From positions 1 to 43,769 of IMG/VR virus record IMGVR_UViG_3300042002_000074: 43,769 bases of DNA. One strand, 5' to 3'. The position numbers and the translations under genes are program-made. The DNA is from a virus. The notes under the pieces are model-generated. The model made no database searches, was not told the DNA's origin, and was given only the letters and a program-made list of their open reading frames with translations. The number at the start of each line of letters is the position of its first letter. Within the stretch, counting starts at the first letter, position 1. Positions 25,971 to 38,035 of this stretch are shown here, piece by piece.

Positions 25971-26006
25971 TCGCACATTTTACAAGGCCTATAGTGAGAC
26001 CCCTAC
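25971..26006 (+). promoter_or_regulatory. 36-nt promoter-like element, copy 1
   Basis: First of ten fixed-length elements. All begin TCGCA, have TTACA near position 11, a TATAAT-like hexamer at 20-25, and end GACCCCTAC or AACCCCTAC. Here the hexamer is TATAGT (25990-25995). The spacing from TTTACA to the hexamer is only 5 bases, so this is not a standard sigma-70 pair. AGGGGTC just before and GACCCCT at the end are complementary in this copy. It precedes the gene at 26021. Confidence 0.65.
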
Positions 26007-26020
26007 CGGAAGGAACCGCT

Positions 26021-26314
26021 GTGTTCACTCTGAAGTTCCCCAAGACCAAGCCGACCCAGCTCGAAGAAGAGATCGCCCGCATCCTCGACGAGATGAGTGA
26101 GATGAAGGTCACCGACCCGGAGTACGTCACGTACGCCGACCGTCTCGTCCAGCTCTACAAGCTCAAGGAAGTCGATTCCGACAAGCGCGTGAGCAAGGAC
26201 ACGATGGTCGCCGCCGCGACGAACCTCGCCGGGATCCTCATCATCATCTCGTACGAGCACGCGCACGTGTTCGGTTCGAGGGCTGCCAGCTTCGTCTTGA
26301 AGAACATCAAGTAA
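26021..26314 (+). CDS. Cassette 1: small protein with C-terminal membrane segment
   Basis: A 97-residue protein: a charged helical N-terminal part (QLEEEIARILDEMSEMKVTDPEY...LVQLYKLKEVD), then KRVSKDTMVAAATNLAGILIIISYEHAHVFGSRA with one membrane segment near 71-86. Similar proteins recur in actinophages, but no function is known to me. GTG at 26021 follows GGAAGGA. It has its own 36-nt element upstream and a strong terminator downstream, so it should be transcribed alone. Confidence 0.7.
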   Translation: MFTLKFPKTKPTQLEEEIARILDEMSEMKVTDPEYVTYADRLVQLYKLKEVDSDKRVSKDTMVAAATNLAGILIIISYEHAHVFGSRAASFVLKNIK

Positions 26315-26398: not shown

Positions 26399-26434
26399 TC
26401 GCATATTTTACACGCCCTATAATGAGACCCCTAC
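26399..26434 (+). promoter_or_regulatory. 36-nt promoter-like element, copy 2
   Basis: Hexamer TATAAT at 26418-26423. Identical over all 36 bases to copy 3. It lies 12 bases before the start codon of the gene at 26447, so the GACCCCTAC end would be in or next to the 5' leader. Confidence 0.65.
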
Positions 26435-26752: not shown

Positions 26753-26764
26753 TCTCAACGCCTG

Positions 26765-26788
26765 AACCCCTACAAGGGGTTTGGGTTT
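26765..26788 (+). terminator. Terminator-like hairpin after cassette 2
   Basis: AACCCC, loop TACAA, GGGGTT, then TTGGGTTT. The short GC stem with a broken T-rich tail is repeated with varying loops after eight other cassettes. Confidence 0.75.
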
Positions 26789-26793
26789 CGGGT

Positions 26794-26829
26794 TCGCATA
26801 TTTTACACGCCCTATAATGAGACCCCTAC
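26794..26829 (+). promoter_or_regulatory. 36-nt promoter-like element, copy 3
   Basis: Hexamer TATAAT at 26813-26818; sequence identical to copy 2. It starts six bases after the previous terminator. Confidence 0.65.
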
Positions 26830-26847
26830 TATCGATTGGAATCCACC

Positions 26848-27144
26848 ATGGATGACCAGAAGAAGCAGAAGCTCGCCCAGATCAAGCAGAAGATCAAGGC
26901 CGTTGCCCCCGCCGCTATCGCCTTCACCGCTGCCGCCGCCTCCGTGGTGCTCACCATCAACGCCGTCAAGAACGCCTCCCAGAAGGCCGCCGACAACTTC
27001 GTTGAGCCCGAGCCCTTCCGTGAGGTCACCGGAGAGGAGAAGGAGACGCTGCTGGGACGCGACGACATCGTGATCCAGGAACTCGATCAGGGTACCTTCT
27101 ACGCTATCAGCGTCGTACCCAAGGAGACCCAGCCCGAAAGCTGA
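26848..27144 (+). CDS. Cassette 3: small membrane protein
   Basis: A 98-residue protein: MDDQKKQKLAQIKQKIKAV, then one Ala-rich membrane segment at about 19-41 (APAAIAFTAAAASVVLTINAV), then an acidic tail with a predicted strand IVIQELDQGTFYAISVV. It is a likely paralogue of cassette 2. Codons are almost all GC-ending, as in the capsid gene. ATG at 26848 matches the pattern of the other cassettes; the in-frame TTG at 26836 overlaps the GATTGGA ribosome-binding site and is rejected. Function unknown. Confidence 0.7.
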   Translation: MDDQKKQKLAQIKQKIKAVAPAAIAFTAAAASVVLTINAVKNASQKAADNFVEPEPFREVTGEEKETLLGRDDIVIQELDQGTFYAISVVPKETQPES

Positions 27145-27156
27145 CCTCAAAGCCTG

Positions 27157-27180
27157 AACCCCACATGGGGTTTGGGTTTT
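27157..27180 (+). terminator. Terminator-like hairpin after cassette 3
   Basis: AACCCC, loop ACAT, GGGGTT, then TGGGTTTT followed by CCTTTTG, a richer T tail than most copies. Confidence 0.75.
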
Positions 27181-27194
27181 CCTTTTGTACGGGT

Positions 27195-27230
27195 TCGCAT
27201 GTTTTACACACCCTATTATGAGACCCCTAC
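27195..27230 (+). promoter_or_regulatory. 36-nt promoter-like element, copy 4
   Basis: Hexamer TATTAT at 27214-27219. Identical to copy 5 over all 36 bases, so copies 2/3 and 4/5 form two identical pairs. Confidence 0.65.
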
Positions 27231-27243
27231 GAAAGGACCTTCC

Positions 27244-27345
27244 ATGCTGAAGCGAATCATTCGTGCCGTCCGTAACGCCATCGTCAACCGCGATGACCTG
27301 ATGGACCTGCACGACGCCGTCTTCACCAAGGAGATCGAGAAGTAG
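27244..27345 (+). CDS. Cassette 4: 33-residue amphipathic protein
   Basis: A very short frame: MLKRIIRAVRNAIVNRDDLM, then DLHDAVFTKEIEK. The N-terminal helix has alternating basic and hydrophobic faces and could lie on a membrane; there is no full membrane span. GAAAGGA precedes the ATG, and the gene has its own 36-nt element and terminator, which strongly supports that it is real despite its size. Function unknown. Confidence 0.65.
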   Translation: MLKRIIRAVRNAIVNRDDLMDLHDAVFTKEIEK

Positions 27346-27358
27346 GAACAACACCCAG

Positions 27359-27380
27359 ACCCCTCAAGGGGTTTGGGTTT
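27359..27380 (+). terminator. Terminator-like hairpin after cassette 4
   Basis: ACCCC, loop TCAA, GGGGT, then TTGGGTTT. Confidence 0.7.
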
Positions 27381-27390
27381 CGCATAGGGG

Positions 27391-27426
27391 TCGCATGTTT
27401 TACACACCCTATTATGAGACCCCTAC
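27391..27426 (+). promoter_or_regulatory. 36-nt promoter-like element, copy 5
   Basis: Hexamer TATTAT at 27410-27415. AGGGGTC immediately upstream (overlapping the first bases) is complementary to GACCCCT near the end, giving a 7-bp inverted repeat round the element as in copy 1. Confidence 0.65.
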
Positions 27427-27439
27427 GAAAGGCAGCATC

Positions 27440-27688
27440 ATGACCAAGAACGACTGGACCAAGTTCCTCTTCTTCGTCCTGGGCGTGCTCGTCACCACTG
27501 GAATGAACATCGGATCCATTCTCGTCCTCAGGATGAAGATCACCAAGCGCATGAAGCGCTCGGAGACCTTCCTCACCGAGAGCGAGAAGATCATGGAAGA
27601 GTTCCGGAACACCGACGAGAACGACCGGGAGAGGCAGAACGAACTCTCGGAGCAGTACGTCAAGCTCATGGAGCAGTACGGACTGTAG
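27440..27688 (+). CDS. Cassette 5: small membrane protein with coiled-coil tail
   Basis: An 82-residue protein. A membrane segment lies at the N-terminus (about 8-31, KFLFFVLGVLVTTGMNIGSILVL), followed by basic RMKITKRMKR and then a long charged helix (SETFLTESEKIMEEFRNTDEND...). The basic patch after the segment predicts the long tail is cytoplasmic. ATG at 27440 follows GAAAGG at the cassette spacing. Function unknown. Confidence 0.7.
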   Translation: MTKNDWTKFLFFVLGVLVTTGMNIGSILVLRMKITKRMKRSETFLTESEKIMEEFRNTDENDRERQNELSEQYVKLMEQYGL

Positions 27689-27701
27689 CCATCAACGCCC
27701 G

Positions 27702-27723
27702 ACCCCGCAAGGGGTTTGGGTTT
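27702..27723 (+). terminator. Terminator-like hairpin after cassette 5
   Basis: ACCCC, loop GCAA (a stable GNRA tetraloop), GGGGT, then TTGGGTTT. Confidence 0.75.
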
Positions 27724-27724
27724 C

Positions 27725-27760
27725 TCGCATATTCTACACGGCCTATAATGAAACCCCTAC
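27725..27760 (+). promoter_or_regulatory. 36-nt promoter-like element, copy 6
   Basis: Hexamer TATAAT at 27744-27749. This copy has CTACA in place of TTACA and AAACCCC in place of GAGACCCC-type ending, so it is one of the more diverged members. Confidence 0.6.
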
Positions 27761-27775
27761 TGATTGGAAACCGCC

Positions 27776-28024
27776 GTGTTTGGATCCCGTAAGCAGCGCG
27801 AACTCCGCATTCGTATCGGTAAGACTGACGACAACGAAAACACCAATTCCGGAGAGGACAAGATCCTTCGCCCCGAAACTGTTCAACTCATTTCTGAGAA
27901 GAGCAAAGAAGTAGCGAAGTATGTTGCCCTCACCGCGGTTAGTGCCTACGCCGCCGTCAAAGTCATCGATACCCTTAGCAAGATCGCTGTCAAGAAGACC
28001 AAGAGCGCCGACAACAACGAGTAG
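27776..28024 (+). CDS. Cassette 6: small protein with weak membrane segment
   Basis: An 82-residue protein. A polar N-terminal half (MFGSRKQRELRIRIGKTDDNE...) is followed by a helix KEVAKYVALTAVSAYAAVKVIDTLSKIAV (about 45-73) that could span or lie in a membrane. GTG at 27776 sits at the cassette spacing after GATTGGA. Codons are less GC-biased than in cassettes 1-5. Function unknown. Confidence 0.65.
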   Translation: MFGSRKQRELRIRIGKTDDNENTNSGEDKILRPETVQLISEKSKEVAKYVALTAVSAYAAVKVIDTLSKIAVKKTKSADNNE

Positions 28025-28036
28025 TTCCACAACCCG

Positions 28037-28058
28037 ACCCCGCAAGGGGTTTGGGTTT
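28037..28058 (+). terminator. Terminator-like hairpin after cassette 6
   Basis: ACCCC, GCAA tetraloop, GGGGT, then TTGGGTTT, followed directly by CGCCATATTT. Confidence 0.75.
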
Positions 28059-28084
28059 CGCCATATTTCCCCTGGAGGAAAAGT

Positions 28085-28240
28085 ATGCTCGATCGAATCT
28101 CTATTATGTGGTTGATGCTCGCTTCTGTAACCTTTGGAGCCGCTCTCTATCTCGTCTTCGAACTGTGGACTGTGTTCATCATCCTTGCGACTGTCATCTT
28201 GGTCAGGATCTACGAGGCCGTGTACGACAGAAGGACATAG
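28085..28240 (+). CDS. Two-span small membrane protein
   Basis: A 51-residue, strongly hydrophobic protein (MLDRISIMWLMLASVTFGAA, then LYLVFELWTVFIILATVILV and RIYEAVYDRRT) with two membrane segments and a basic C-terminus. It has no 36-nt element of its own; it follows the cassette 6 terminator and an ATATTT word, with CTGGAGGAAA as ribosome-binding site inside a small hairpin (TTTCC/GGAAA). It may be made by readthrough. Holin-like size and topology, but no family recognised. Confidence 0.6.
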   Translation: MLDRISIMWLMLASVTFGAALYLVFELWTVFIILATVILVRIYEAVYDRRT

Positions 28241-28243
28241 AAC

Positions 28244-28279
28244 TCGCACGTTTTACAGGTCCTATAATGAGACCCCTAC
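28244..28279 (+). promoter_or_regulatory. 36-nt promoter-like element, copy 7
   Basis: Hexamer TATAAT at 28263-28268. It begins only three bases after the stop codon of the 51-residue gene. Confidence 0.65.
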
Positions 28280-28298
28280 CTAGATTGGAAACCCTGTC

Positions 28299-28523
28299 AT
28301 GGACGAGAACTTCGAGACCGCCAACGTCGAGACCTCCGAGACCCCTGAAACCAACTTCGGCAAGGAGATCACCAAGACCTTCGCTATCAGCACCGCAGTC
28401 TCTGCCGGTGTTATCGCGGGGTTCATGGTGGTCGGCCTGGCCGTGAACAAGTTCCAGGACTTCAAGGCCCGACGTAACGCCAAGCTGGAAGCCGAACTGT
28501 TCCAGGACCCCACCAAGGACTGA
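28299..28523 (+). CDS. Cassette 7: small membrane protein
   Basis: A 74-residue protein: an acidic N-terminus rich in Thr/Glu (MDENFETANVETSETPE), one membrane segment at about 29-50 (FAISTAVSAGVIAGFMVVGLAV), then a basic helix NKFQDFKARRNAKLEAEL. The charge distribution predicts N-out, C-in, opposite to cassettes 2 and 3. GATTGGA precedes the ATG at the usual spacing. Function unknown. Confidence 0.7.
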   Translation: MDENFETANVETSETPETNFGKEITKTFAISTAVSAGVIAGFMVVGLAVNKFQDFKARRNAKLEAELFQDPTKD

Positions 28524-28537
28524 ACCTCAACTACCCG

Positions 28538-28560
28538 AACCCCGCAAGGGGTTTGGGTTT
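28538..28560 (+). terminator. Terminator-like hairpin after cassette 7
   Basis: AACCCC, GCAA tetraloop, GGGGTT, then TGGGTTT. Confidence 0.75.
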
Positions 28561-28587
28561 CGCCGTATTCTCTATGAGGTGAGTGTC

Positions 28588-28812
28588 TTGCTGGAAGAGC
28601 CCGAGCTGATCACGCTCATCCCCGAAGAGGAACCGGAAGAGCCCCCGCCGCCTCCGAAACTTGGCGCCAAGATCGTCGTCAACCTCATCGTCATCGCTGG
28701 TCTCAAGGTCGCTACGGGGTTCGCCGTCCGAAGTCTGGTGAAGAACATCAGGCAGTTCGATATTCTCTATCCCGAACACCTCGACCGCATCAGATGGAAG
28801 GACATGCCGTGA
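28588..28812 (+). CDS. Pro/Glu-rich small membrane protein
   Basis: A 74-residue protein: an acidic Pro-rich start (EEPELITLIPEEEPEEPPPPP), then one membrane segment at about 29-46 (VVNLIVIAGLKVATGFAV), then a basic and aromatic tail. TTG at 28588 is preferred because GAGGTGA (28576-28582) is then 5 bases upstream; GTG at 28579 lies within that site but cannot be excluded. It overlaps the next gene as GTGA. It has no 36-nt element and lies after a terminator. Function unknown. Confidence 0.6.
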   Translation: MLEEPELITLIPEEEPEEPPPPPKLGAKIVVNLIVIAGLKVATGFAVRSLVKNIRQFDILYPEHLDRIRWKDMP

Positions 28813-29021
28813 GTGATCACTACTGCACTTGCCCTCACCCGAGCCACAAGAACAAGGCCCTGAACAAGCTGAAAGAGGCCTGGAACGAGAACCCGGTTCT
28901 GGTCATCGGAGTGATCGGCGGTGCTCTCGCCGGTGCCGGTAAGTTCATCGACTCCATCAGCGCGGTCCAGGGTCGTCGCGCCTACGCCAAGCACGCCAAG
29001 CTCCGCGCTCAGAAGAAGTAA
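28809..29021 (+). CDS. Small membrane protein with Cys/His N-terminus
   Basis: A 70-residue protein. MSDHYCTCPHPSHKNK places two Cys and three His near the start, which could bind a metal. A helix with a membrane segment at about 30-50 (PVLVIGVIGGALAGAGKFI) and a basic end (YAKHAKLRAQKK) follow. GTG at 28809 overlaps the preceding stop as GTGA, with GGAAGGA 6 bases upstream. Function unknown. Confidence 0.65.
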   Translation: MSDHYCTCPHPSHKNKALNKLKEAWNENPVLVIGVIGGALAGAGKFIDSISAVQGRRAYAKHAKLRAQKK

Positions 29022-29030
29022 GGTACCGCC

Positions 29031-29258
29031 ATGCAGATCAAGATCACCCAGCCCGATGAGGACTATCCTCTCGTCTACGTCCATATTCCGATAACCCACA
29101 ACGAGTTCGATCTCGATTACATGCTGACTCAGCGCAGGGTCAGTCTGCTCGGGAAGTGGGAGAAGGACGAGGACGGTGGCTACAAGGCCCCAGGTCTGCG
29201 TGAGGACCAGCACGTCAAGCCGAAGGCTCCGAGAAAGTCGACCGCTCGTCGCAAGTAG
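29031..29258 (+). CDS. Small soluble protein, unknown function
   Basis: A 75-residue protein with a compact-looking N-terminal part (IKITQPDEDYPLVYVHIPITHNEFDLDYMLTQ) and a Lys/Arg/Pro-rich tail ending STARRK. No membrane segment is seen. AAGGTACC gives a weak ribosome-binding site nine bases after the previous stop. It is the last gene before copy 8 of the 36-nt element. No family recognised. Confidence 0.6.
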   Translation: MQIKITQPDEDYPLVYVHIPITHNEFDLDYMLTQRRVSLLGKWEKDEDGGYKAPGLREDQHVKPKAPRKSTARRK

Positions 29259-29261
29259 AAC

Positions 29262-29297
29262 TCGCAGGAATTACACGTCCTATAATGAGACCCCTAC
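29262..29297 (+). promoter_or_regulatory. 36-nt promoter-like element, copy 8
   Basis: Hexamer TATAAT at 29281-29286. Copies 8 and 9 share GGAATTACA in place of the usual TTTTACA, forming a sub-group. It begins three bases after the preceding stop codon. Confidence 0.65.
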
Positions 29298-29311
29298 CGA
29301 TTGGACGTGTT

Positions 29312-29503
29312 ATGAACGCCAAGCAGAAGCTCGTCTCCGTGAAGAACAAGGTCGCTGCCAACAAGACCAAGATCCTCGGAACCATCGCCGTCGTCGCAAC
29401 GACCGCCGTGGCCATCCAGAGGTACGGCCTGAAGCAGCACGACCAGTTCCTCAAGGAGAAGGGCCTGTACGACGAGTACTACACCGTTACCGAAGAAGAC
29501 TGA
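29312..29503 (+). CDS. Cassette 8: small membrane protein
   Basis: A 63-residue protein: Lys-rich N-terminal helix (MNAKQKLVSVKNKVAANK), one short membrane segment at about 20-35 (KILGTIAVVATTAVAI), then a polar tail with an acidic end (YYTVTEED). The layout repeats that of cassettes 2 and 3. ATG at 29312 follows GATTGGA. Function unknown. Confidence 0.7.
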   Translation: MNAKQKLVSVKNKVAANKTKILGTIAVVATTAVAIQRYGLKQHDQFLKEKGLYDEYYTVTEED

Positions 29504-29515
29504 TCTCAAGACCCG

Positions 29516-29538
29516 ACCCCTACACGGGGTTTGGGTTT
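29516..29538 (+). terminator. Terminator-like hairpin after cassette 8
   Basis: ACCCC, loop TACAC, GGGGT, then TTGGGTTT, followed by CGCCATATTC. Confidence 0.7.
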
Positions 29539-29562
29539 CGCCATATTCACGAAAGGGAAGTC

Positions 29563-29853
29563 GTGACTGACGAAAAGCCCGAAGAAGACACCGAAACTCA
29601 GGATGTTCCGTCGGAAGACTCAATCATCGAGTCTCCCCTCAACGAGGGTTCTGACGCCGAGCCGGACAAAGACGAGGAGTGTCCGCGACCGTATATCCGG
29701 TACACGTCGGCCCCCCGCACGGGCTCGATCTGGAATTCGCCCATCGGTCTCCTCACGACGTTCTTCATCGCCTCCAAGGTGATCGACCTGGCCTACCGGA
29801 CCATGATGGAACGCGAGAAGACCAAGCGAGCCGAGTTCCAGAAGCAGCAGTAG
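29563..29853 (+). CDS. Acidic small protein with C-terminal membrane segment
   Basis: A 96-residue protein: the first half is acidic and probably unfolded (TDEKPEEDTETQDVPSEDS...), the second half has RTGSIWNSPIGLLTTFFIASKVIDLAYRTMMEREK with one membrane segment near 65-80. GTG at 29563 follows AAAGGGAAG. It lacks the 36-nt element and comes after a terminator and ATATTC word, like the genes at 28085 and 29900. Function unknown. Confidence 0.65.
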   Translation: MTDEKPEEDTETQDVPSEDSIIESPLNEGSDAEPDKDEECPRPYIRYTSAPRTGSIWNSPIGLLTTFFIASKVIDLAYRTMMEREKTKRAEFQKQQ

Positions 29854-29899
29854 TACACGGTCCAACAACCACAGCCATATTCCTGAAGGGAATCCCCAC

Positions 29900-30031
29900 A
29901 TGGCCAGCAAGACCACCAAGACCATCTTCTCCATCTCTCTCGTCGTGTTCATCCTCTGGGTCATCGCCCGGATCCGGGATGGGATCGCGTCCGACCCGTT
30001 CGACGTCGAGGAAGACAACCCCGCCGCGTAA
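29900..30031 (+). CDS. 43-residue single-span membrane protein
   Basis: MASKTTKTIF, then SISLVVFILWVIARI forms one membrane segment (about 9-25), followed by RDGIASDPFDVEEDNPAA. The charges predict N-in, C-in ambiguity, so topology is uncertain. CTGAAGGGAA precedes the ATG. An ATATTC word lies just upstream. Too short to match any family by eye, but the start site and hydrophobic design support a real gene. Confidence 0.6.
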   Translation: MASKTTKTIFSISLVVFILWVIARIRDGIASDPFDVEEDNPAA

Positions 30032-30058
30032 CGACGGTGGTCATATTCGGGAAGGGTC

Positions 30059-30094
30059 TCGCAGGAATTACACACCCTATAATGAGACCCCTAC
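30059..30094 (+). promoter_or_regulatory. 36-nt promoter-like element, copy 9
   Basis: Hexamer TATAAT at 30078-30083. GGGTC just upstream is complementary to GACCC near its end. Confidence 0.65.
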
Positions 30095-30111
30095 CAATTG
30101 GACCTATCACC

Positions 30112-30330
30112 ATGAAGAACAAGCTCTCCATCCTCACCACTGCCATGCAGAAGGTTGAGGCCAAGACCGCCAACAAGACCGTTGACGAACTGATCCACAA
30201 CGAAGAAGCCGCTGGCAAGCGCGCTCTCGCGAAGTGGGGATTGGTCGTCGCCGGAACCTTCACCGCGACCATGGCCGCGATCATTCTCACCGGCAGGATG
30301 GACAAGGACGAGACCACTTCCGAAGACTGA
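30112..30330 (+). CDS. Cassette 9: small membrane protein
   Basis: A 72-residue protein: MKNKLSILTTAMQKVEAKTANK, a polar helix, then one membrane segment at about 43-61 (GLVVAGTFTATMAAIILTG) and an acidic C-terminus (KDETTSED). ATG at 30112 follows CAATTGGA at the usual spacing. Codon use is GC-ending. Function unknown. Confidence 0.7.
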   Translation: MKNKLSILTTAMQKVEAKTANKTVDELIHNEEAAGKRALAKWGLVVAGTFTATMAAIILTGRMDKDETTSED

Positions 30331-30357
30331 TACCCACCCACTGGACATCATGACCTG

Positions 30358-30382
30358 AACCCCACAAGGGGTTTGGGTTTTT
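30358..30382 (+). terminator. Terminator-like hairpin after cassette 9
   Basis: AACCCC, loop ACAA, GGGGTT, then TGGGTTTTT, the longest T tail among these copies. Confidence 0.8.
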
Positions 30383-30408
30383 GGTTTGTCCGAGGAAGGA
30401 GTACAACC

Positions 30409-31319: not shown

Positions 31320-32129
31320 ATGGATCTCAGCGTGCTGTTCAAGCGCGCGGGACAGGTCGCCGCGGAAAATTCACCGGCGATTCTCACCGCGATCGGTGTC
31401 ACAGGCACCCTGACCACCGCATATCTTGCGGCCAAGGGAGCGCTCAAGGCTGCGGAGGCTCTCAAGGAAGCGGAGGAGGCCAAGACCGCTGAGTTCGAGG
31501 CGGAGTCCCCCGCGAACCGTGGGCTGAAGAACGTACCCGAACCGCTCACCACCCAGGAGAAGTTCGAAGCTACCTGGGAGCACTTCGTCCCCGCAGCTAT
31601 GAGCGCTGCGATGACCGTGGCTGCGATCATCTGCTCCAACCGGATCAGCGACCGTCGTACGGCGGCCCTGGCGTCGGCATATTCCGTCGTCAAGGAGAGC
31701 TACACCGAGTACCAGGCGAAGACCGCCGAGAAGGTCGGGCCGAAGAAGGCCCAGGAGATCAAGGACGACGTCGCCGCGGAGATGGTCAAGCGGCATCCGA
31801 TCCGGTCGACCGAGGTCATCATGACCGGTGGGGGCCAGGTCCCGTTCTACGACCGCTGGTCGGGTCGCTATTTCTACAGCGACATCGAGTCGGTCCGCAA
31901 GGGTGTCAATGACTTCAACCAGCGGCTTCTCCACGACATGTACGCTTCGCTGAATGAATTCTGGAGCATGATCAAGGTTCCTTCGGCAGCGTGTGGCGAG
32001 TACCTCGGCTGGACCTCGGACAACTTCCTCGAGATCGATATCACGTGGGTGACGATCGAAGGCGAGCGTGTCGCGGTCGTCGACTTCAAGACCCTTCCGA
32101 TCGCGAAGTACGACCGGAGTAGTTATTGA
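31320..32129 (+). CDS. DUF6353-like membrane protein 1
   Basis: A 269-residue protein. Two membrane regions, about 19-41 (SPAILTAIGVTGTLTTAYLAAKG) and about 91-107 (VPAAMSAAMTVAAIICSN), are separated by a charged helix. Then come RRTAALASAYSVVKESYTEYQAKTAEKVGPKK and a soluble C-terminal half with aromatic-rich segments. The order SPxIL-x-x-x-G-x-x-G-T, then RxAALxxAY, matches the DUF6353 phage family of unknown function. The gene at 37118 is a second, distant member. ACAGGAG precedes the ATG. Confidence 0.65.
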   Translation: MDLSVLFKRAGQVAAENSPAILTAIGVTGTLTTAYLAAKGALKAAEALKEAEEAKTAEFEAESPANRGLKNVPEPLTTQEKFEATWEHFVPAAMSAAMTVAAIICSNRISDRRTAALASAYSVVKESYTEYQAKTAEKVGPKKAQEIKDDVAAEMVKRHPIRSTEVIMTGGGQVPFYDRWSGRYFYSDIESVRKGVNDFNQRLLHDMYASLNEFWSMIKVPSAACGEYLGWTSDNFLEIDITWVTIEGERVAVVDFKTLPIAKYDRSSY

Positions 32130-32886: not shown

Positions 32887-33426
32887 ATGCCCGCTGTCAT
32901 GAGGACGATACGTTACACCGACCTGGACGGTAACCCCCAGGCGGTCGACTACTGGTTCTCGCTCGGAAAGACCGACGCGATCAAGATGGACTTCGTCCAC
33001 CGGGATGACCCCAAGGCATACCTGGAGTCCATCGCCAAGAACCAGGAGAGCCGGAATGTCATGGAGCTCTGGGAAGAGCTCCTCTTCAAGTCCGTCGCCC
33101 TGCGTACGGAGAACCACCTCGTCAAGAACCAGGAGATCCTGGACCGGTTCATCGGCTCCGGCGCCTATGAGCAGCTCTTCAACGAGCTGATCGAGTCCGA
33201 GGACGGCGGCGCGGCCTTCTTCCTGAGCATCATGCCCCAGGAAGTCCAGGAGAACGCGTCCAAGGAGATAGAGCGGAACACCAAGGAGTACACGAACGAC
33301 GAACTCCTCGCTCTGGACGACGAGACGTTCTTCGCGGTGGCCGGTACGAAGAACGTGATGGACATGGACAGGCGCTTCATGCAGATCGCCTGGCAGCGCA
33401 AGGAGAACGGTCGCAAGACGGCCTGA
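32887..33426 (+). CDS. Conserved phage protein, tail-chaperone-like pattern
   Basis: A 179-residue acidic protein starting RTIRYTDLDGNPQAVDYWFSLGKTDAIKMDF. It continues with helical segments and GSGAYEQLFNELIESEDGGAAFFLSIMPQEV. I recall this YTDLDG/FNG-type opening from proteins labelled tail assembly chaperones or unknown in siphoviruses. Here it lies 16 kb past the tape measure among accessory genes, so a tail role is uncertain. The ribosome-binding site is weak (GAGGATATTCAC). Confidence 0.6.
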   Translation: MPAVMRTIRYTDLDGNPQAVDYWFSLGKTDAIKMDFVHRDDPKAYLESIAKNQESRNVMELWEELLFKSVALRTENHLVKNQEILDRFIGSGAYEQLFNELIESEDGGAAFFLSIMPQEVQENASKEIERNTKEYTNDELLALDDETFFAVAGTKNVMDMDRRFMQIAWQRKENGRKTA

Positions 33427-33438
33427 CTCCAATGATGT

Positions 33439-33580
33439 GATGACCGGGGCTCTCAGCAATAACAACGACGCACGTAGGGGTCTCACCCGAGCGTCGAAAC
33501 TTATATTCGGGATGCTGAGAGACAAAACGACAGCCGAGGCCCTATCGCCCCCGTATGGGTAAACATGTGCCCCGGTCATC
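33439..33580 (+). ncRNA. Multi-stem structured RNA candidate
   Basis: Within a 178-base gene-free gap, several stems can be read. Outer stem GATGACCGGGGC (33439-33450) with GCCCCGGTCATC (33569-33580), 12 exact pairs. Second stem CTCTCAGCA (33450-33458) with TGCTGAGAG (33513-33521). Inside that, CGACGC (33466-33471) with GCGTCG (33491-33496), capped by GGGT-CTC-ACCC (33478-33488). A competing hairpin GGGT (33557-33560) with GCCC (33569-33572) uses part of the outer stem. The gene at 33605 starts 24 bases later, so a cis-acting leader or a stand-alone RNA are both possible. Confidence 0.7.
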
Positions 33581-33604
33581 TCATATTCCCGCCAAGGAGG
33601 AACA

Positions 33605-33784
33605 ATGCGTGATGCTCGTACTTACTGCGAAGAGCACGGTGACAAGCGAGTGTTTTCACATCAGTCGACCGACCGTGGCGAGATCGTGAACGTATACGCC
33701 GACGACTGGACTCCGAACTGCCGGATCTACGTCGGGACCGGTAAGTACGTTCGTGACGGTCACCGGCCCGAGCGTACAAGCTGA
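33605..33784 (+). CDS. 59-residue Cys/His protein
   Basis: MRDARTYCEEHGDKRVFSHQ, then a polar region with WTPNCRIYVGTGKY and a basic end. C8, H11, H19 and C39 could form a small metal site, but spacing is irregular. CCAAGGAGGAAC gives a strong ribosome-binding site. It follows the structured RNA candidate directly. Function unknown. Confidence 0.6.
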   Translation: MRDARTYCEEHGDKRVFSHQSTDRGEIVNVYADDWTPNCRIYVGTGKYVRDGHRPERTS

Positions 33785-35054: not shown

Positions 35055-35090
35055 TCGCAAGTTTTACAGGGGCTTTAATGAGACCCCTAC
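35055..35090 (+). promoter_or_regulatory. 36-nt promoter-like element, copy 10
   Basis: Hexamer TTTAAT at 35074-35079; otherwise follows the pattern (TCGCA start, TTTTACA, GAGACCCCTAC end). It lies 5 kb from copy 9, which shows the cassette can move or be inserted as a unit. Confidence 0.65.
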
Positions 35091-36630: not shown

Positions 36631-37121
36631 CGAATATTCCCAGGGCATACAACGAACTGGTCGGTACCCTCCTGTCGGAGGAGGACCGTGCAAAGTTCGA
36701 GTGGGCGATCGGGTCGGCTCTTATCAACGGACCTCGAACCGTCCTTCTGATTCACGGTTCTCCGGCCAGCGGGAAGTCTACGCTCCTGAACATCGTCAGG
36801 AAGCTCGTGATGATCCCGGTCAACGGGGGATACGCTCCTCGTGTGCTCATCAAACACGAGGTGGACCGTCTCGAACTCGACCGGGACATGCGTCTCGATT
36901 CCGACTCGTACATCTTCGCGGCGAACAACCAACCCGTCTATATTCCCAAGGGTGTAGAGGTCATCAACACCTCCGGGAACCGAGTCTCGGTTCACAAGCA
37001 TTACGTACTCATGGACGAGATCGGTGACGAAGCGATCGACATCGCCAACCACTGTCTCGACGTCTACCACAACACTCCGAACACCATCAGCTTCAACAAC
37101 CCTCAGGAGAACGACCGATGA
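36627..37121 (+). CDS. Truncated D5/P4-like helicase paralogue
   Basis: A 164-residue relative of residues about 138-345 of the large replication protein. Shared: AYNELVGTLLSEEDRAKFEWAIGS, Walker A GSPASGKST (about 44-52), IFAANNQPV (sensor 1-like), and IANHCLDVYHN. The region between Walker A and sensor 1 is shortened: the stretch holding the Walker B-type acidic residues and the following conserved segment in the large protein is missing, as is the RR pair expected to act as arginine finger. It may bind ATP yet not work as a helicase. ATGA overlaps couple it to both neighbours. Confidence 0.7.
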   Translation: MTNIPRAYNELVGTLLSEEDRAKFEWAIGSALINGPRTVLLIHGSPASGKSTLLNIVRKLVMIPVNGGYAPRVLIKHEVDRLELDRDMRLDSDSYIFAANNQPVYIPKGVEVINTSGNRVSVHKHYVLMDEIGDEAIDIANHCLDVYHNTPNTISFNNPQENDR

Positions 37122-38035
37122 TCAAGACTCTCGCCGGTAGGGTCACCGGCACCTTCAGCAAGCAGATCCTGACCCTCAAGACCAACTCCCCCGCACTGCT
37201 TCTCGGCATCGGCGTCATCGGCGCTACAACCAGTGTGGTGCTCGCCTGCCGGGCTACGCTCAAGCTGAACGACCTGCTCGAAGAGGGCAACGAGCACCTG
37301 GAGAAGGCCGACGAGGCCAAGGACAAGCTCGAGGAGGAAGAGCTCAAGAAGGCCAAGTTCGGGGTTCAGCTCCAGACGGCCATCAAGATCGCTCGCCTCT
37401 ACGCCCCGTCGGCTCTCCTCCTCACCGGGTCCATCGCCTGTCTCGCCGGGTCCCACGTCATCCTCCAGAAGCGCAACGCCAGTCTCATCGCGGCCTACAC
37501 GGTCGTCAGCAAGGGCTTCTCGGAGTACCGCGCCCGGGTCATCGCCGACCAGGGCAAGGAGAAGGACTTCGAGTACCGCTTCGGCAAGGACGAGCGGGAG
37601 TTCGCCGTCGAGGGAGAGACCGGTACCGACGTCGTCACGGCCAAGGGTCCGGACCAGGATGCGATCAAGCACAAGACCCAGTGGACGTACGCCCGGGTCT
37701 TCGATCGCTCCAACCCCAACTGGAACGACACCCCGATGGCGAACCAGAACTTCGTCCACATGGTCGAGAGCTCGATGAACCGCAAGCTCCTGATCAACGG
37801 CTACGTCTTCCTCAACGACGTCTACGAGGCCCTCGGCTTCCCGAAGACGCAGGCCGGTCAGCAGGTCGGCTGGGTCATCAACCCCAAGGAGGGCGAGGGT
37901 GATGGCCTGGTCGACTTCGGCGTTTGGAACGAGGGTACGTACAAGGGTCTCGAGTGGATCAGCGGTCAGCGTGACGCGCTGCTGCTGGACTTCAACGTCG
38001 ACGGCCCTGTCGTGAAGCACTTCCCGAAGGTGTGA
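37118..38035 (+). CDS. DUF6353-like membrane protein 2
   Basis: A 305-residue protein. Membrane segments at about 22-46 (NSPALLLGIGVIGATTSVVLACRAT) and about 95-113 (YAPSALLLTGSIACLAGSHVI) flank a charged coiled-coil-like helix. Then RNASLIAAYTVVSKGFSEYRARV and a soluble C-terminal part with YVFLNDVYEALGFPKTQAGQQVGWV. This is the usual DUF6353 layout. Codons are GC-ending, suggesting good expression. The start overlaps the helicase paralogue stop as ATGA. Function unknown. Confidence 0.7.
   Translation: MIKTLAGRVTGTFSKQILTLKTNSPALLLGIGVIGATTSVVLACRATLKLNDLLEEGNEHLEKADEAKDKLEEEELKKAKFGVQLQTAIKIARLYAPSALLLTGSIACLAGSHVILQKRNASLIAAYTVVSKGFSEYRARVIADQGKEKDFEYRFGKDEREFAVEGETGTDVVTAKGPDQDAIKHKTQWTYARVFDRSNPNWNDTPMANQNFVHMVESSMNRKLLINGYVFLNDVYEALGFPKTQAGQQVGWVINPKEGEGDGLVDFGVWNEGTYKGLEWISGQRDALLLDFNVDGPVVKHFPKV

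Follow-up and report, generated by a model that had tools for sequence, protein, structure and literature searches.

A conserved structured RNA in phages of Streptomyces, Gordonia and Rhodococcus carries a loop complementary to a family of phage promoters and may act as an antisense RNA in trans

C4, the antisense RNA encoded by phages P1, P7 and P4, has a single target, which lies in its own transcript. The put antitermination RNAs of phage HK022 act on the elongating polymerase, and they are not known to have a loop complementary to promoters. Here we describe a structured RNA from a viral stretch of 43,769 nucleotides (IMG/VR record IMGVR_UViG_3300042002_000074), which is called the window below. 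Its most telling feature, absent from the initial annotation, is a loop complementary to about ten promoter-proximal sites.

The initial annotation had placed a multi-stem RNA at 33427-33604, with a 12-bp closing stem, a 9-bp second stem and a nested hairpin. All three are found at those places in the minimum-free-energy fold; the interval does contain the element but is slightly too wide, since the conserved part spans about 33436-33588 on the + strand, with ATATTC (33583-33588) at its 3' edge as had been noted. The closing stem P1 is formed by GATGACCGGGGC (33439-33450) and GCCCCGGTCATC (33569-33580, with the conserved ...ATGTGCCC), as seen from the pairing and from an alignment of 46 sequences in which its two inner G-C pairs are invariant. 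The second stem P2, a covarying helix, joins CTCTCAGCA (33451-33459) to TGCTGAGAG (33513-33521). Predicted fold and alignment place the P3 hairpin at 33466-33496, where a variable stem (CGACGC, 33466-33471; GCGTCG, 33491-33496) bears a conserved apical loop, GTAGGGGTCTCA (33474-33485). Two further conserved blocks were identified in the junctions, TTCGGGATGC at 33506-33515 (TTCCGGATGC in most relatives) and AAACGACAGCCG at 33525-33536, in which AAACGAC is invariant.

The fold of P1, P2 and P3 has a predicted energy of -63.8 kcal/mol (z -2.99), and 1 of 200 shuffled sequences was as stable. Fold energy alone is moderate evidence, and the homologues are decisive for the structure. In the alignment A1, which comprises 46 distinct copies of the RNA, 95.4% of the cells are paired and 85 are double-changed. 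The covariation score of 0.462 exceeds both controls, as a new RNA family should: 0.158 was obtained with shuffled alignments and 0.02-0.11 when the 3' strand was slid. Covariation is strong in P2, with up to four Watson-Crick types per pair. Covariation in related phages had been named beforehand as the check on the multi-stem RNA, which these data and the covariance-model searches strongly support. Because the homologues covary, the closing and second stem are, judged by comparative sequence evidence, real RNA structure, and it is nearly certain that the RNA family is real.

A blastn search returned 35 Streptomyces phage records. The stretch behind the upstream gene was compared in 22 phage records, most of which share the blocks AGGGGTCTC, TTCCGGATGCTG, AAACGACAGCCG and ACATGTGCCC, and a gapped DNA pattern derived from these four blocks was run against IMG/VR. 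It was found in 49 stretches, two of which look unrelated; the matches L053 and L054, which are without flanking blocks, were excluded. Further named carriers are the Rhodococcus phage ReqiPepy6, its relative ReqiPoco6 and the Gordonia phage Tanis, so that the hosts of RNA-carrying phages span three genera, Streptomyces, Gordonia and Rhodococcus. The covariance model R1 (positions 1-137) matches the window with 93.3 bits (E 8.6e-23), the window itself being one of the model's 46 sequences. R1 recovers the RNA in 23 of 36 records, all but one of them taken from the promoter scan and three (G011-G013) having also contributed to the model. Among the records outside its training set are divergent phages (G027, E 1.7e-22; G014, E 1.0e-21; G017, E 5.2e-19). 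No Rfam 15 family matched in the window at the gathering threshold, and permissive searches gave chance matches only (E <= 10 in the region itself; E <= 3 across 17 homologous loci). The RNA is annotated in none of the phage records examined, and a literature search for such promoters or such RNAs found no paper. Bacterial genome contigs contained three matches to the gapped pattern, none of them RNA-like and fewer than the approximately ten expected by chance, and so gave no indication that bacterial genomes carry the RNA. A plasmid search gave no match. The loci L229, L230 and L231 may represent second copies of the RNA core that lack the loop and lie in the same genome as the first, with an adjoining promoter in G022 and G037 and a weak match in G038.

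Motif searches revealed, on the + strand of the window, a repeated phage promoter with the pattern TCGCA-N6-ACA-N5-TATAATGAGACCCCTAC. It contains TGAGACCCCTAC, which occurs nine times exactly and a tenth time with one mismatch, each copy lying directly behind a -10 box and before a small gene. The first promoter, TCGCA...TATAGTGAGACCCCTAC at 25971-26006, precedes a 97-aa ORF starting at 26021. The promoter-proximal sequence TATAATGAGACCCCTAC follows at 26418-26434 (101-aa ORF from 26447), 26813-26829 (98 aa, 26848), 28263-28279 (74 aa, 28299), 29281-29297 (63 aa, 29312) and 30078-30094 (72 aa, 30112). The form TATTATGAGACCCCTAC is found at 27214-27230 (33 aa, 27244) and 27410-27426 (82 aa, 27440), the mismatched form TATAATGAAACCCCTAC at 27744-27760 with a small ORF behind it, and TTTAATGAGACCCCTAC at 35074-35090 (53 aa, 35110). 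Most of these small ORFs encode one strongly hydrophobic stretch. Terminator-like hairpins (ACCCCgcaaGGGGTTTGGGTTT) are repeated at 26760-30385 (for example 27705-27723 and 30357-30380), directly before many of these promoters; an ARAGORN tRNA call on the minus strand (28505-28580) lies over a terminator repeat, is without a full anticodon and is probably false.

Over all fetched loci, 502 distinct sites gave the consensus TCGCA-N6-ACA-N-G-N-CC-TATAATGAGACCCCTAC. The -10 box variants TATAGT, TATGAT, TATTAT and TACTAT keep T1, A2 and T6. When 472 sites were picked regardless of the sequence after the -10 box, GAGA was present at 94-98% and CCCCTAC, which is often followed by the Shine-Dalgarno sequence GAAAGGA, fell from 91 to 65%. 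Since GAGA stays high while CCCCTAC falls, the motif is bipartite: the promoter proper extends as far as GAGA, and CCCCTAC forms a leader module ahead of the ribosome-binding site. No phage-own RNA polymerase or sigma factor that would explain the promoter was found among the proteins scanned; the sole match of a 1348-aa protein was DUF5906.

The sequence GAGACCCC(TAC), which follows the -10 box of the repeated promoter in approximately ten copies in the window, is complementary to the P3 loop. The loop is the exact reverse complement of TGAGACCCCTAC and the sole exact minus-strand match of this 12-mer in the window, where about 0.003 matches are expected on one strand by base count. Such promoters are present in 25 of 27 RNA-carrying records tested, mostly several per record and nearly all on one strand, the reversed pattern being almost absent. 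Predicted energies of the loop-leader duplex are -26.1 kcal/mol in the window, -18.4 in Rima and -19.3 in Gordonia phages. The complement recurs in the loops of variable stems in phages of the three host genera. In SendItCS the RNA scaffold is replaced and a strong hairpin with GUAGGGGUCUCACCC is kept at the same place, and in the Gordonia phages and LibertyBell the loop reads GUAGGGGUCCG and pairs with GACCCCUA[CU]. The complementarity to the leaders is conserved, but the predicted folds often pair the first three G of the loop. Presence and absence of loop and leader were compared in Arthrobacter and Curtobacterium phages, with a suggestive outcome in Zeina and a contradictory one in Serenabean: the Arthrobacter phage Zeina carries a loop-less scaffold, and CCCCTAC directly follows GAGA in none of its seven promoters, whereas the Curtobacterium phage Serenabean has CCCC leaders and no RNA at the corresponding place. 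Likewise, G016 and G028 have CCCC leaders but R1 finds no RNA in them, G035 and G043 contain loop-less copies despite intact leaders, and G003 has the loop while promoters are absent by pattern. Rima-type loops (GGAGGGGUCUC) mismatch the TAC that Rima-type promoters mostly keep. As the leader persists in some lineages that have no complementary loop, coevolution is suggestive only; a link between the loop and the promoter-leaders is likely.

The gene preceding the RNA (32887-33426, + strand, 179 aa) encodes a protein with a match to the PF23803 domain 'Phage_TAC_17', and the ORF that ends 30-176 nt, mostly about 45 nt, before the loop likewise encodes such a protein in 40 of 41 loci. The gene 3' of the RNA differs among phages, being for instance an annotated peptidase in Kardashian and ClubPenguin. 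The 59-aa Cys/His protein encoded downstream in the window has no relative in the phage collection. The reading of the RNA as a leader of this Cys/His gene does not hold, as dozens of phages keep the RNA ahead of other genes. Since the downstream gene changes from phage to phage, the RNA is not the leader of one gene class; the constant partner is the upstream PF23803 gene. A common gene order comprises tape measure and minor tail genes, the small-gene array, the PF23803 gene, the RNA and primase/polymerase. PF23803 is named a tail assembly chaperone, and the gene at 32887-33426 is located far downstream of the tape measure gene, beside small non-structural genes; the protein's role may differ from what the name implies. 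Two DUF6353 paralogues (31320-32129 and 37118-38035) flank the region in the window. Across the whole window ATATTC has 41 copies on the + strand and 2 on the minus strand, with 8.3 expected for the two strands combined. The same bias, on the strand of the genes, is seen in 20-kb pieces of relatives (for example 30:0, 34:0, 31:0 and 0:20), ATATTT is biased similarly, and the six + strand copies of ATATTC within the tape measure gene are all in frame as ATA-TTC.

The loop complement beside about ten promoters suggests that the phage controls a whole gene set by RNA. As mode of action we place first, with a probability of roughly 0.4, a phage-encoded, 3'-UTR-derived antisense RNA that would act in trans on the phage's small-gene regulon. 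According to this proposal the RNA would be cut out of the PF23803 gene transcript or act within it. The P3 loop would pair with the 5' leaders of the small-gene mRNAs beside the ribosome-binding site, and this pairing would change their translation or stability together, most likely downward. Action in trans is proposed because no such promoter directly follows the RNA in the window. If TATAAT is the -10 box, transcription would normally start within or after CCCC, which would leave GAGA in the promoter DNA and outside the mRNA. The mRNA could then pair with just a part of the loop, which argues against the antisense reading.

Such a start site also means that the complement covers melted promoter DNA as much as mRNA, which keeps promoter pairing or a 6S-like function viable. 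The loop, which reads like the template strand between about -6 and +5 of the phage promoter, might mimic the promoter, bind RNA polymerase or the single-stranded non-template strand of the open complex, and in this way act on the promoters directly. This is the best placed of the alternatives, if an unlikely one. The complementary stretch lies directly behind the -10 box, in the region that is melted, and the expected start falls within GACCCC, a part that even the loops of the Gordonia phages and LibertyBell (GGGGUCCG) retain. On the other hand, neither the -10 box nor TCGCA is reproduced in register in the RNA, which folds into a branched structure instead of the single long hairpin, opened by a large central bubble, that characterizes 6S RNA; nor does it match the 6S models in Rfam. 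The more specific proposition that the RNA recognizes the promoters by sequence and controls initiation at about ten of them, either via the melted non-template strand or by offering a template copy to the polymerase, seems to us a little more doubtful.

Action in cis is about as doubtful. When transcription reads through, the loop could bind GAGACCCCUAC in the promoter-leader just beyond it and thereby insulate or attenuate the next gene. A promoter does directly follow the RNA in many relatives (L206, L207, L210, L213, L214, L216-L218, L220, L221, L225 and L227), and 83 of the 502 promoter sites have a GGGGTC of their own upstream, compared to 10 for the reversed pattern. However, the loop is still kept in the window, Bing, Rima and Kardashian, where no promoter directly follows the RNA, and the next promoter in the window is 1.5 kb downstream. 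Below these readings we rank, as improbable, the explanation that the complementarity is a by-product, with GGGGUCUC conserved for another role such as a tertiary contact or a protein site, or one DNA-binding protein using both sites. The persistence of the leader without a complementary loop in Serenabean, G016 and G028 is in line with this explanation, as is the predicted pairing of GGG with CCC inside the tip; the low chance expectation for the 12-mer and the recurrence of its complement on variable stems in three host genera speak against it. The proposed switch between two mutually exclusive folds, as a control of the Cys/His gene (33605-33784), is very improbable: an alternative pairing of GGGT (33557-33560) and GCCC (33569-33572) can be written for the window sequence, but all four pairs are present in only 4 of the 46 homologues in A1, this pairing accounts for 70 of 184 cells compared to 143 of 184 in the inner part of the closing stem, and the downstream gene lacks conservation.

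Should the pairing prove real, a single small RNA would set the level of an array of small proteins, mostly of membrane type, and the antisense proposal can be tested in phages from teaching and research collections. What is new here is a structured RNA together with a phage promoter family to which its loop is complementary, common to phages of Streptomyces, Gordonia and Rhodococcus. Like C4, the RNA is phage-encoded and structured and has segments complementary to sequence beside the ribosome-binding site of phage mRNA; unlike C4, its complement recurs about ten times in the genome, beside promoters, and the Rfam searches did not flag C4. With 6S RNA it shares a template-like copy of promoter sequence, but the motif copied is phage-specific and lies behind the -10 box, and both the branched fold and the Rfam result set it apart. 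It resembles the HK022 put RNAs, conserved phage RNAs with several stems that are read as part of a longer transcript, and differs from them in its promoter-complementary loop. Bacterial 3'-UTR-derived small RNAs offer a further parallel, being located directly behind a coding gene and having a seed complementary to several mRNA leaders, whereas the RNA described here is encoded by phages.
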